Assembly (NCBI RefSeq): GCF_000003815.2
Contig: NC_049979.1
Coordinates: forward strand, 21,187,308 to 21,251,307
Reading direction: 5' to 3'
DNA length: 64,000 nt
Source: Branchiostoma floridae
Taxonomy: Eukaryota > Chordata > Leptocardii > Amphioxiformes > Branchiostomatidae
The translations under genes and the position numbers were made by a program. The notes beneath the pieces are model-generated. The model saw nothing but the letters and a program-made list of their open reading frames with translations. It had not been told where the DNA came from and did no database searches. This document shows positions 29,501-44,500 of the stretch, in pieces (position 1 is the first letter of the stretch; every line of letters starts with the position of its first letter).

Positions 29501-32500
29501 GATCTGATGATTCAGGAGAAAAGGTCATTGATCATAATCATGATCATTCTGATAACAAAGACTGTGTTCTGCTGCAGCGCATTGGACCCAAGTGGGACGA
29601 GCACGATTGTACTCATGGGCACCATTTCGTCTGTCAATCAAATCACGGTATGTCGCTTTTACAGAATTGTTAAGTAAAAATTAAAGTGGTAGCAGTGTGT
29701 AGAAACAGTGATAACCAATCTCTTCAAAGTTTCATCATTAATAATGCAAATTAGGTTATGGTTTGCATTTAATTATGAGTCTGTACCTACGTTACCTATT
29801 GGATATCACTGCAGCCTTTCCTGAGTTATTCTCCTCCAAAGTTTCCAACAAAAATCCCCAGGCAGTTTCAAAACTGGCAAAGAAGCCATATTTTGGCTGG
29901 CGGTGATGCAAAAAAAACCTAATTCACGGCGTGAATTACGGTTTTTAAAGTAGTAGAGTTTCTATCCATCCACCCATAAGTTGGTAGATTTCATGAGTTA
30001 CTCTATAAGTTATAACTTATGTCTTGTTTTCAGTGATTCACTCCCAGGTACAGACCGAGTGTAATGTGCTGACGAACCCTGACCCCATAGCTCAGGAAGC
30101 CCACCTGTACGGCACGACCATACACTTCACCTGCTCAACAGGGCACACAATGGTTGGTACAGCAGACCGGGTGTGTCAAGCCAATGGCCAATGGAGTGGC
30201 TCACAACCCACCTGTCATGGTAGATATAAAAACATTCTATATGATAATGCTGCATAGTACATGAATATGTAATGTTATGTCACATTTTGTCACATTTTCA
30301 TATCCTAATACAAGCACATATTAGTGTATTTTTGCAAAAAAATGAACTCCCTGAACCGAAACAGATGATACTGTAATATGCTGTACTGTACATGACTATC
30401 ATGTCTTGAGGTAATTATCTATATTGTGTTGAATTTAGTATACGTAAAATAAATACATTTAGTAATGCATTTATACATTGTATAGCATTATTCATAATTG
30501 ATAATAGCATTTAATGTAAGAATGTCATGCACACATGATGTTATGATAATATTCTGCTCATAGAAGTAAAATTTGACAGTGTCTTAGAAATGTACTAATC
30601 GCATTGGGATTTGTAAGCCATCTTTTATGGTCAGGGACTTACAATCATAATGCCTCCTCAGCACACCATGTGCCAGAGTGTAGACCCCTTCACGCACCTC
30701 ACCACGGAACGATCAGTGGGGGCAACAATCTAGGAGACACTGTGACCTTCTCCTGCGACCCTGGTTACCAGCTAACAGGTTCTGTCACAAGGACCTGTCA
30801 ATCAACATTGGACTGGTCTGGGACACAGCCGACTTGTACCAGTAAGTCACCATACTTGTTACCTTCATGAAATCAGAGGTATTGTTCTCGGTTTGTGTGG
30901 TTGTTTGTCCTAGTGTGTGTATTCAATTGTGCCTGGGTCCAACCTTGCTCCTTCAGGTTGAGTTGGCCCTGGTCCAAATTTGTTCCACAGACCAAGTCAT
31001 ATATGATGTCCTTGCACATGAGAAGTCATGTGAGTTGAGTATGTAAAATGTGTGCAATGACATGATAATGTGTAATGTGTTGTCTAGAAATTTACAGAAA
31101 ATATTTGATGGAAGTGATATGAGGAGATATTTGATTTCTGGTTTTCCGATTCAACAATGCTACATCATTTTCATCCGAAAAGTACATCAGTTTTATGCAT
31201 TACGACTTTTTTTAATGTAAAGATTATTTAAAAACTGCACTGTCATTTATGGTGATCCTAAAATCTCCTGATGAACAGAGGTCCAGTGTCCCGAGGTGAC
31301 CACTCCGCCCAATGGACAGATATCTCGTCACCACTTTGAATATGGAAATCATCTGCAGTTCTCCTGCAATGCTGGTTACGAACTGGTAGGTGGCAGCTCT
31401 GAAATAACGTGTCAGGCTGATGGAACGTGGGATGGAACAGCACCAGTGTGTAACAGTGAGTTCATGTTGAACTGATGTCAAAGGTTTAAAGACAGCTTGA
31501 ATATCTTTGTGTAGTGGCAGAATTTGTGTGGTTCTGATCTTTGGCAACACCCCATGGGCTGAGCCATATTGAACACTTTAAAAGAAACAAAACAAAACGA
31601 TACTGTAATGAATGAAGAAAATTTGATGGAAAAGCCAGTGATCCAATGTTGTTAGAAGCTACTTGAAGAGCTCACCACATTTTTTGATAAGAGTTATTAA
31701 TAACAGTAGAGGTTTAAAACCGTCCAGCATCTGGGTTGATATCTTGAAAAGGTGATATTAAGTTATGAGTTATGTCAATGTAAATCTTATTATTAAATGA
31801 GTAAATGGACAAAAAATGCATGTTTTTTTTTATACAATGTTGTGTACTTTTCTCTCTCAGAGATACAGTGTCCCCCAGGCCAATCCCCATCACATGGCCA
31901 TGTGACAGGTAACATTCAGTATGGTGACACCATCAGCTACAACTGTGAAGCAGGGTACGTCCTGACCGGCGATGCCACCAGCACTTGTCTCAGTACAGGG
32001 GTGTGGAGCAATCAGCCGCCACAGTGTACCGGTGAGTTCACTCATGTCTGCAACATAACATTGCAACTCTTGATTTTCTTCCAATTCCATATGCTGTACA
32101 GGGCATTACATATATCAAATGACTGTATCCAGTGAATGCAGCACATTGCTTTGCCCATTTTGAGAGGGTTTCAGGGCCCAAAAGTTAAATCGAAGTCAGT
32201 CGGGATTATCAGCAAAATAGCAGCAGCTGCCAGTTCTGTCCAACTAAGCTCTGATTTTGATGGAGGTGTTCGAAATGGTCAAACGGGGCGTCCTGGCTTT
32301 GGGATCTGTCTGTCCATTGCTGCCGGTAGTCACCATTCAATATACCAATGATATATTGAGACGTGTACTACTTTTACTTAAAGAAATTTGCATCATTTCT
32401 CTTCACAAGATGTTTGGTGCAGCAAGAAAGATTTGGAAGAATATTGACTTATCATCCTTTCTGTCATCCTTTTCTAGCACTGGCGTGTTCCATGCCCTCT

Positions 32501-41500: not shown

Positions 41501-44500
41501 TTAAAAATACATTAGGATATATCTAGTACTATTGAGTTAAAGATATGGGGTCTATAAGTCTTGGAATTCAAAAGTCAAATTTCAACACTTAATTTAAAGT
41601 CAAATGATTGAGGTTCAGATGGCCTCACAGATGGTTCTCACAGATCAATACAGAACCAGTAAAACGTCCTTAAATTTTAGTCTTGCTCAAAATGAGTGAT
41701 TCCCATGCCCTGTCAGTAGTCAGGGGTATCATGAATTGTAGATCTATGGACTTGCCATTTTAAACATTATTTTCAGTAACTGTAGATTTTTTGCATCAGT
41801 AATCCAGTGCCCTGCTGTCCAGGCTCCACTGAATGGTGGTGTGGCTGGGGGTAACTTCTTTGGCAACACGGCCACCTACACCTGTGATGTTGGGTACCTC
41901 CTGATTGGTCACAGTACCAGCACATGCCTCAGCACAGGCATCTGGAGCAGTCAGGCCCCTCAGTGCACATGTAAGTCCATATTGCTATTGATGTACATAA
42001 AAATGAGCAATCCCAGAGGCATTTATCATTTTTGACCAAAATAACTATTTCCAGTTATTAGTTGAATTTCCAAAGCTTGTCACTTCTACCAGTAGTCAAT
42101 TTCCATTGATTCATATTCAAAAGAAAAAGCTCCATCCCTTATGTGTTGCCAAAAACGTTTTCCAGTATAGTTTATTTAGTCACTGTTCATTCCTAAGAAT
42201 GTAAGTAGAACCTGCATCAAAACGTGTATCATATACATGACCCTATCTGCTTGTTAATATTGTAATTGATATTGTTGCTTTTTATGGTTTGTCTTATTAT
42301 TATGAAGCCACTCTAAAATTTGCAATTGAATACCGATGAAAATGTTCTATTTCTAAATGCAAATCCACCCAAAATATTTTCTCACTACAGTGAAGACCTG
42401 TCAGCCACTTGCGGTTCCAGACCACGGCACAATGATGGGTGGAAACAATTACGGAAACGTCGTCACCAACGCCTGCGACGTCGGCTATGACCTGATAGGA
42501 AACCCCACCCAGACGTGCCAGGACAACCAGCAATGGTCTGGTTCCCCACCAATTTGTCAAAGTATGCATGGTTAAATAGATTCTATATTTGAAATATCAA
42601 CTCCCACCAAACTCCTTCTGCTTTCTCCCCACAAAAAAATCCACTTTGCCCGGTCGTTCATCTTCATTCTCCTTGAAAATCTGTTTGGCGCCACCCTTCT
42701 GCTCTGTCCCCAATGGCTGGCATTCTCTGGCACTGCTTATAGTTGACAGGAAAACATGAAGAAAGAAACAATAATGGTGAAGCTGTGACACCAACAGACA
42801 TTGTCCTTGGTACAGAACAAGTTTTTAACATATGAAATGCTTTTAAGAGGATTCGATCTCTACAACTTCTTTGCTGTACATCCAGTTGTAGAGATTGAAT
42901 TGTCTTAAGATATTGTCTACCTGGGTGTCTAACCTCCACAAATGTATCCCATGCCTTATCTAGCCACATGGAATATTTCATGATATTGTTTACTTTTGCA
43001 ATCATTGCCAGTGTGGCACATTTTGTGCACATTTTGTGAACACTAAATTGGGTTTTTTATTGCGATATTTGGTTAAACATTTTCTTACGTTTTTTAAATA
43101 CACATTTGTCGATTTTGTTTTTTAAGAGGTCCAGTGTGCCCCACTGAGTGCGCCAACTTATGCAACCATGACGGGAACAGGAAATGAGTACGGGGACACC
43201 GTGCACTTCACCTGTTTGGTGGGACACACCCTGACAGCAGGAGACACTGACCGAACTTGTCAAGCAGATGGCACATGGAGTGGTCTTCAGCCTTCTTGTA
43301 CAGGTATAGATACTACTTAAATTTTTAAATTAGTATTTGTTGTATTTTAGTGACATCCAACGAAGCTCTGCTATTGGACATACTGTCTTGGGCATTTTCT
43401 ACTGCCTCACTAAAAACATGATGTAATGTCAACTCTATGTAATTCTGCCAGTACTATCATATGACTGCAAAAATACTAAATTATTGAAGCCTTTCTGAAA
43501 ACATTTGGAACACCGGGATGCCCAATTGAAATGATACATACCTTGGGTCATATAGTAAGGTTCTTTAGGCACATCCAAGGAGTACTTACTTTCAACCATC
43601 ATCAGGGTAGAATGGCTGGAACTTCTTGCTGCTTTAACTTATAGTCGATGTAGGTGGCGCTGCAGCAGCAAGAATGCCGTCCCAGACGTGGCTCAGCTTG
43701 TTTTCCCCCTCGTCTCTGTTCATGACGAGAGCTGATTTTCTCATCCAAACTGCCTCTTTAGTCCAGCGTGTTCTTCTGTTTTCCTCTCTGTCGATGACTC
43801 TAGCCCCCTCCCAGTCTATTACACAGCTGCAGTTGTTTCTATTGATATGGTCGGTGACTGCTGACTTGTTTTCTACTAGTTCTGTTGCCTTCTTCTTGGA
43901 TCTAATGTATGTGGTTCCTTTGCTGTTTTGTGCTTCCTTTCTGTGCCCTTCGAGTCTGGTGTTGGCAGTGGTGCCGGTCTCCCCAATATACACCTTGTCA
44001 CAGCTTTTGGACAGAATAAGTTATACACACAATCTATTTGGAGGAGTACCAACAAATTTCTGAGGGTGGTTCTGGGCTTGACTGCCGTGGCGATTTTGTG
44101 TTTTTTGAAGATCCTTTCTGGTGTGAAGTGCCTTTTACATACGGAATAGACCATGCCCTTGGACTTCTGTTCTTCTTTCTTCGTGTCTTTCTTTTGTTTA
44201 GGTTTGTTGTCTTATATTGTTCTCTTCTGAAGGACCAGTCTGGGTAACCACAGCGTGACAGGGCTTGTTTGATGTGTTCCACCTCTTGCTGTCTGTCTTT
44301 GTCCTCTGTAACCACTGTTTTGCTCTGTAACCCCATTCTTGCTGCTGCAGCGGCCCCTACATTGGCTATTAGTAGCAACAAGAAGTAGTTTCCTGAGTCA
44401 TTCTACCCTGATGATGGTGTCTGATAGACACCGAAACATTGGAAGTAAGTACTCATTGGTTGTGCCTAAAGAACCTTACTATATGAATAATTGCCAACCT

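Follow-up and report, generated by a model that had tools for sequence, protein, structure and literature searches.

A 64,000-nucleotide stretch of the Branchiostoma floridae genome (NCBI RefSeq assembly GCF_000003815.2, contig NC_049979.1, positions 21,187,308 to 21,251,307 of the forward strand; hereafter the window, numbered from its first letter) carries a long run of CCP (Sushi) exons. It raises the question of whether these exons form a higher-order repeat, whether that repeat is young or old, and what kind of protein carries it. The exons at 30662-42561 (plus strand), which we call array 1, consist of a unit of four CCP exons that is present in four ancient copies within one large gene model. 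We think it rather probable that this gene, which also has a head resembling that of horseshoe crab factor C, encodes a giant, secreted and soluble recognition or scaffold protein.

Four classes of CCP exon in array 1

Array 1 contains four units of four CCP exons in the order C-D-A-B, where the choice of C as the first member is a convention. Unit 1 comprises the exons 30662..30841 (class C), 31279..31455 (D), 31861..32031 (A), and 32478..32648 (B), and unit 2 those at 33310..33483, 34511..34681, 35210..35377, and 36074..36244. Units 3 and 4 follow in the same class order and on the same strand, at 36714..36887, 37376..37546, 38102..38272, and 38707..38877 and at 40627..40800, 41260..41430, 41800..41970, and 42391..42561. 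Assignments rest on leave-one-out class profiles, a check of splice signals and frame, and a tree of the 16 domains. All 16 exons have AG...GT flanks, phase 1-1, and no stop, with an alternative acceptor 15 bp downstream (30677) for the first. An original prediction, made by a model from the letters alone, had proposed this layout with unit starts at 30662, 33310, 36714, and 40627; these positions and the end at 42561 coincide exactly with exon borders.

The same exon structure holds throughout the window. A local CCP profile built from the CCPs of the region and searched in six frames (E up to 1) gave 51 matches, all on the plus strand. Fifty are CCP domains (three partial ones were completed by hand), and the one other match, at 25222, is a fragment that spans 16 residues (E = 0.11). 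Each of the 50 domains occupies one exon with AG/GT borders, phase 1-1, and no stop, and Pfam Sushi (PF00084) scored above its cut-off in all four CCP-bearing frames submitted. One 56-amino-acid CCP exon, compared with bacterial and archaeal genomes, had no relatives there.

Mean identity in array 1 was 0.592 within classes versus 0.422 between classes, and none of 20,000 shuffles of domain order reached the observed period-4 contrast. By lag, identity was 0.600, 0.593, and 0.566 at lags 4, 8, and 12 versus 0.414, 0.397, and 0.435 at lags 1 to 3. Other periods were commonly matched by chance (17187/20000 shuffles for period 3, 18085/20000 for period 5, and 8451/20000 for period 6); the low count for period 2 (25/20000) arises because it is a harmonic of 4. 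Leave-one-out class models placed 16/16 domains in their own class, so the predicted strict order of four classes was borne out by both approaches.

In the tree of 16 domains, each class forms one side of a branch, with better support for D (99/98) and A (94/93) than for C (65/81) and B (66/90). Grouping by physical unit was rejected for all four units (approximately unbiased test, p-AU 5.4e-4 to 4e-139), in agreement with the clustering of same-class domains across cassettes that had been foreseen. The class marks proposed by eye are real but looser than originally written: VGDTVTF and TCQST each occur in 3/4 C domains, LQFSC in 2/4 D domains ([LM]QF.C in 4/4), CLSTG.W in 4/4, and CQDN in 3/4 B domains, while a further B mark occurs in only 1/4. 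None of the strict marks occurs in the remaining CCP exons among the 50 in the window.

Age and copying of the units

Between pairs of array-1 units, nonsynonymous divergence (dN) was 0.26 to 0.41, well below synonymous divergence (dS) of 1.3 to 2.6, the latter being near saturation and hence imprecise. Fourfold sites agreed between units at 0.38 to 0.46 (25/66 to 32/69) versus 0.34 between classes (98/286), and units differed at ~31 to 40% of coding bases. Intron flanks of same-class exons scored no higher than those of other exons (median scores of 20 versus 20 in three comparisons and 21 versus 20 in one; P = 0.32 to 0.85). Flanks of five exons compared between the array gene and its tandem paralogue, by contrast, scored 74 to 518. 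The longest identical run between units was 21 bp. Protein identity is highest between units 3 and 4 (0.64) and lowest between units 1 and 2 (0.55).

Self-comparison diagonals had been expected at 2.6 to 3.9 kb; matches between units do appear, but as short, exon-sized pieces rather than through-going diagonals. Together with the high dS, the flanks without class signal, and the 21-bp run, this indicates that the copies are old and bear no sign of recent homogenization. The array-1 units thus look ancient, and not like a young, shuffling array of the CR1 type, and the class pattern has outlived any intron similarity. In CR1, the long homologous repeats are closely similar units with alignable introns. 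The analogy to these repeats drawn in the original prediction therefore holds for layout and fails for dynamics. Repeated unequal exchange, also invoked there, is the likeliest way in which the units were first copied long ago, whereas recent or ongoing exchange is not supported. The same evidence lends no support to the suggested variation in copy number between individuals, which is unfavored as judged from the one individual sequenced.

Four CCPs that already differed from one another would have been duplicated together as whole genomic blocks. Since all CCP exons are in phase 1-1, any copy number preserves the frame. The units would then have been held by purifying selection while their introns decayed.

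The gene around array 1 and its upstream paralogue

The original prediction concerned array 1 and missed three further features: another array, a head resembling that of factor C, and a duplication at the level of the whole gene. Array 2 (45684-60275, plus strand) consists of 16 CCP exons in four units of order E-F-G-H, as assessed by shuffles, profiles, splice signals and frame, and a tree. Identity was 0.589 within classes versus 0.459 (0/20000 shuffles), and leave-one-out profiles placed 14/16 domains correctly, missing E2 and E3. Class supports were 37/81 (E), 85/87 (F), 89/88 (G), and 85/89 (H), and unit-wise grouping was rejected for all four units (p-AU 0.006 or less). GDTVTF, a looser form of one class C mark, is also present in G2, H2, H4, and H4p. 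All 32 array CCPs carry a net charge of -1 to -6, and this acidity disfavors the idea that the array itself binds endotoxin as a cationic surface would.

Two further CCP exons on the plus strand lie between the arrays (43127..44811). The one at 43127-43303 is nearest to class C by identity (0.53), with an ambiguous profile result (H 66.1, C 65.0, and F 63.6 bits), and it pairs with the CCP that precedes array 1 (n3; 30034..30219, plus strand) in two larger trees (supports 96/92 and 93/86). The one at 44638-44811 falls inside class H in one of these trees. A stray CCP at the border of each array possibly has class kinship to the array. Mean identities between the arrays at the four possible offsets were 0.473, 0.468, 0.456, and 0.452, and none of eight class unions tested across arrays in two registers was rejected (p-AU 0.15 to 0.43). 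These comparisons single out no register between the arrays and favor neither an origin of array 2 as a copy of array 1 nor a separate one. Six tail CCP exons (T1 to T6) follow at 60865..63621 (plus strand). T4 to T6 (62494-63621, and 2028-3184 in the paralogue) each begin with a CC pair and contain six cysteines rather than the usual four, and may perhaps form an extra disulfide.

On the 5' side, seven plus-strand exons precede n3. The first (17199..17553) encodes a leader and an EGF-like cysteine pattern, both recognized by eye, and a TSP1-like stretch. It is followed by two CCP exons (18439-18612 and 19261-19443), three exons that encode a CCP-like fragment and then an LCCL domain (25214-25394, 25710-25776, and 28402-28532), and a C-type lectin exon (29184..29647). 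Pfam matches on the joined head were LCCL (3.4e-21; 75.7 bits), Sushi (1.2e-18), and Lectin_C (8.1e-15; 55.9 bits), and the LCCL domain also matches the solved cochlin structure (7e-13). An Rxt3 match in the LCCL stretch (33.1 bits, above cut-off) was set aside as a chance overlap, the LCCL match being far stronger. The protease motifs GDSGG and [TS]A[AG]HC were found in none of the six frames of the window, although this search would overlook a motif interrupted by an intron. The joined model has 48 exons (7 head exons and 41 CCP exons from n3 on) and encodes 2,878 amino acids in one frame with 0 stops, with AG acceptors at 47/47 and GT donors at 48/48 borders. Within the window the array gene has 43 full CCPs, 41 of them consecutive.

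Several introns contain repeats. Minisatellites of ~142 bp (20630-21279) and ~162 bp (52267-53765) were observed, the latter in a 4.7-kb intron between E3 and F3. A dispersed repeat, with mostly inverted matches between head introns (25823-27981) and array-2 introns (52099-56262), is perhaps a transposon family.

Positions 30-3419 match 60099-64000 at 87 to 91% DNA identity, introns included, in four pieces. The window therefore starts inside a tandem paralogue ~60 kb upstream, whose 3' end (36..9808, plus strand) encodes an H4 and T1 to T6 CCPs, an unassigned domain, an Ephrin_rec_like domain, EGF repeats, a C-type lectin, and a stop. The seven CCPs common to both gene copies differ by a dN of 0.043 and a dS of 0.165. 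It is possible that this ~60-kb duplication represents a diverged haplotype, with no effect on the array. The 3' exons of the paralogue keep one frame to a single stop, with three possible acceptors for one exon. Their domains include Ephrin_rec_like, two EGF_CA domains preceded by a weaker EGF-like one, and last a C-type lectin in which an EPN motif was noted by eye. The ~210-amino-acid domain after the last CCP (3645-5233) had no significant Pfam match, and the exons from 4178 on contain no hydrophobic 19-residue window above 1.35 that would indicate a membrane span. The EGF_CA exon at 8496-8609 has a GC donor rather than GT. An intron contains tRNA-like B-box text (8150-8220), in which ARAGORN found no tRNA; it is perhaps a short interspersed nuclear element.

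The predicted protein and known systems

Given that the paralogue ends in a C-type lectin, the array gene should by analogy end likewise. The product, probably secreted, would contain a long acidic rod of 41 consecutive CCPs, very roughly 150 nm at 3.5 to 4 nm per domain. If the 3' end is like that of the paralogue, a C-type lectin would lie near each end of the rod. From its domain content we infer a function in which the head and lectins would specifically recognize sugars or the surfaces of microbes and the repeated units would add reach, together with either repeated weak binding faces (avidity) or spacing. A more specific proposal is that the gene encodes a protease-less cousin of factor C acting as a giant soluble lectin, whose two arrays of four four-CCP units, each with its stray border CCP, would serve as a modular antenna, with repeated faces that capture a repetitive microbial ligand; this we consider doubtful.

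Some observations weigh against the preferred interpretation of an ancient array in a gene with a factor C-like head. The gene model is built from splice signals and frame rather than transcripts, some acceptors have alternatives, and the 3' end of the array gene lies beyond the window and is taken from the paralogue. In the head, TSP_1 reached 16.7 bits, below the cut-off of 21.6; the EGF-like cysteine pattern had no Pfam match; and the third CCP is the fragment with an E value of 0.11. The classes are less clean in larger CCP trees (51 and 35 rows), in which the short sequences provide too few columns. C2 falls outside class C in both, one, in which a single domain is represented twice, leaves classes B, E, and G unresolved (B not being one clade), and the other splits C, E, and G. 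The imprecision of dS near saturation belongs here as well.

Other explanations account for part of these data. An SVEP1/polydom-like matrix or adhesion scaffold would use the CCP arrays as spacers without a specific ligand. SVEP1 combines a very long CCP run with EGF, Ephrin_rec_like, VWA, and pentraxin modules, and the long CCP run here, with the Ephrin_rec_like and EGF modules of the paralogue, resembles that layout. LCCL and C-type lectin domains, however, are not known to be among its features; VWA and pentraxin had no Pfam match in the selected frames and joined exons that were scanned; and the persistence of distinct classes after ancient divergence suggests more than plain spacing. We regard such a scaffold as unlikely. 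Misassembly, by a misjoined or duplicated stretch, is a general hazard of repeats, but the coding divergence between units and their unrelated introns show that the array is not one locus counted twice, which refutes this explanation for the array and leaves it only a negligible probability.

A complement regulator or receptor of the CR1 type, in which each four-CCP unit would form a C3b/C4b-like ligand site in a young, exchanging, and copy-number-variable array, would fit the higher-order layout. When a four-CCP unit is compared with PDB sequences, the best matches include CR1, CR2, and factor H, alongside many other CCP proteins, and according to PMC6683126 the functional unit in regulators is three to four successive CCPs. 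Such an array is hard to reconcile with synonymous sites near saturation, introns without same-class signal, and a longest identical run of 21 bp. The lectin and LCCL modules of the gene and the lack of a visible membrane span in the 3' exons of the paralogue point the same way, making this a quite improbable reading. PMC6683126 also gives a motif order of M5-M3-M1-M2-M4 over three CCPs for regulators of complement activation.

The locus cleanly shows one gene with two distinct higher-order CCP arrays of four-domain units, in which the class pattern outlives intron similarity. It thereby offers a way to ask if selection on repeated CCP units preserves their binding faces, and hence avidity, or merely their length. 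The origin of the endotoxin-sensing protease of horseshoe crabs, and its assembly from older recognition proteins, would also be illuminated by a head of factor C type that lacks a protease.

Compared with the CR1 long homologous repeats, array 1 shares a higher-order CCP repeat in which class identity is kept across units. The units here are ancient, with unrelated introns, and contain four CCPs versus the seven short consensus repeats per unit given in PMC6883348; CR1 is described there as membrane anchored, whereas no anchor was seen in the 3' exons of the paralogue. Factor C of Tachypleus gigas has the order Cys-rich, EGF-like, CCP1-3, LCCL, CLECT, CCP4, Pro-rich, CCP5, and trypsin, according to PMC10090249. 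On that description, the amphioxus head shares with the factor C heavy chain the order of CCPs, LCCL, C-type lectin, and CCP; the stretch ahead of the CCPs may correspond to the Cys-rich/EGF-like part (here EGF-like by eye, with TSP_1 below cut-off). The amphioxus head differs in having no more than a fragment of its third CCP, and the C-terminal trypsin of factor C contrasts with a window in whose six frames neither protease motif was found and a paralogue that ends in a lectin. In addition, 41 CCPs follow the head, and the paralogue adds Ephrin_rec_like, EGF domains, and a second lectin. This architecture was not described in the titles and abstract openings of the literature searched, by which we do not claim its absence from print. 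Higher-order CCP repeats are themselves known; here a lectin joins a factor C-like head to two ancient four-CCP arrays.

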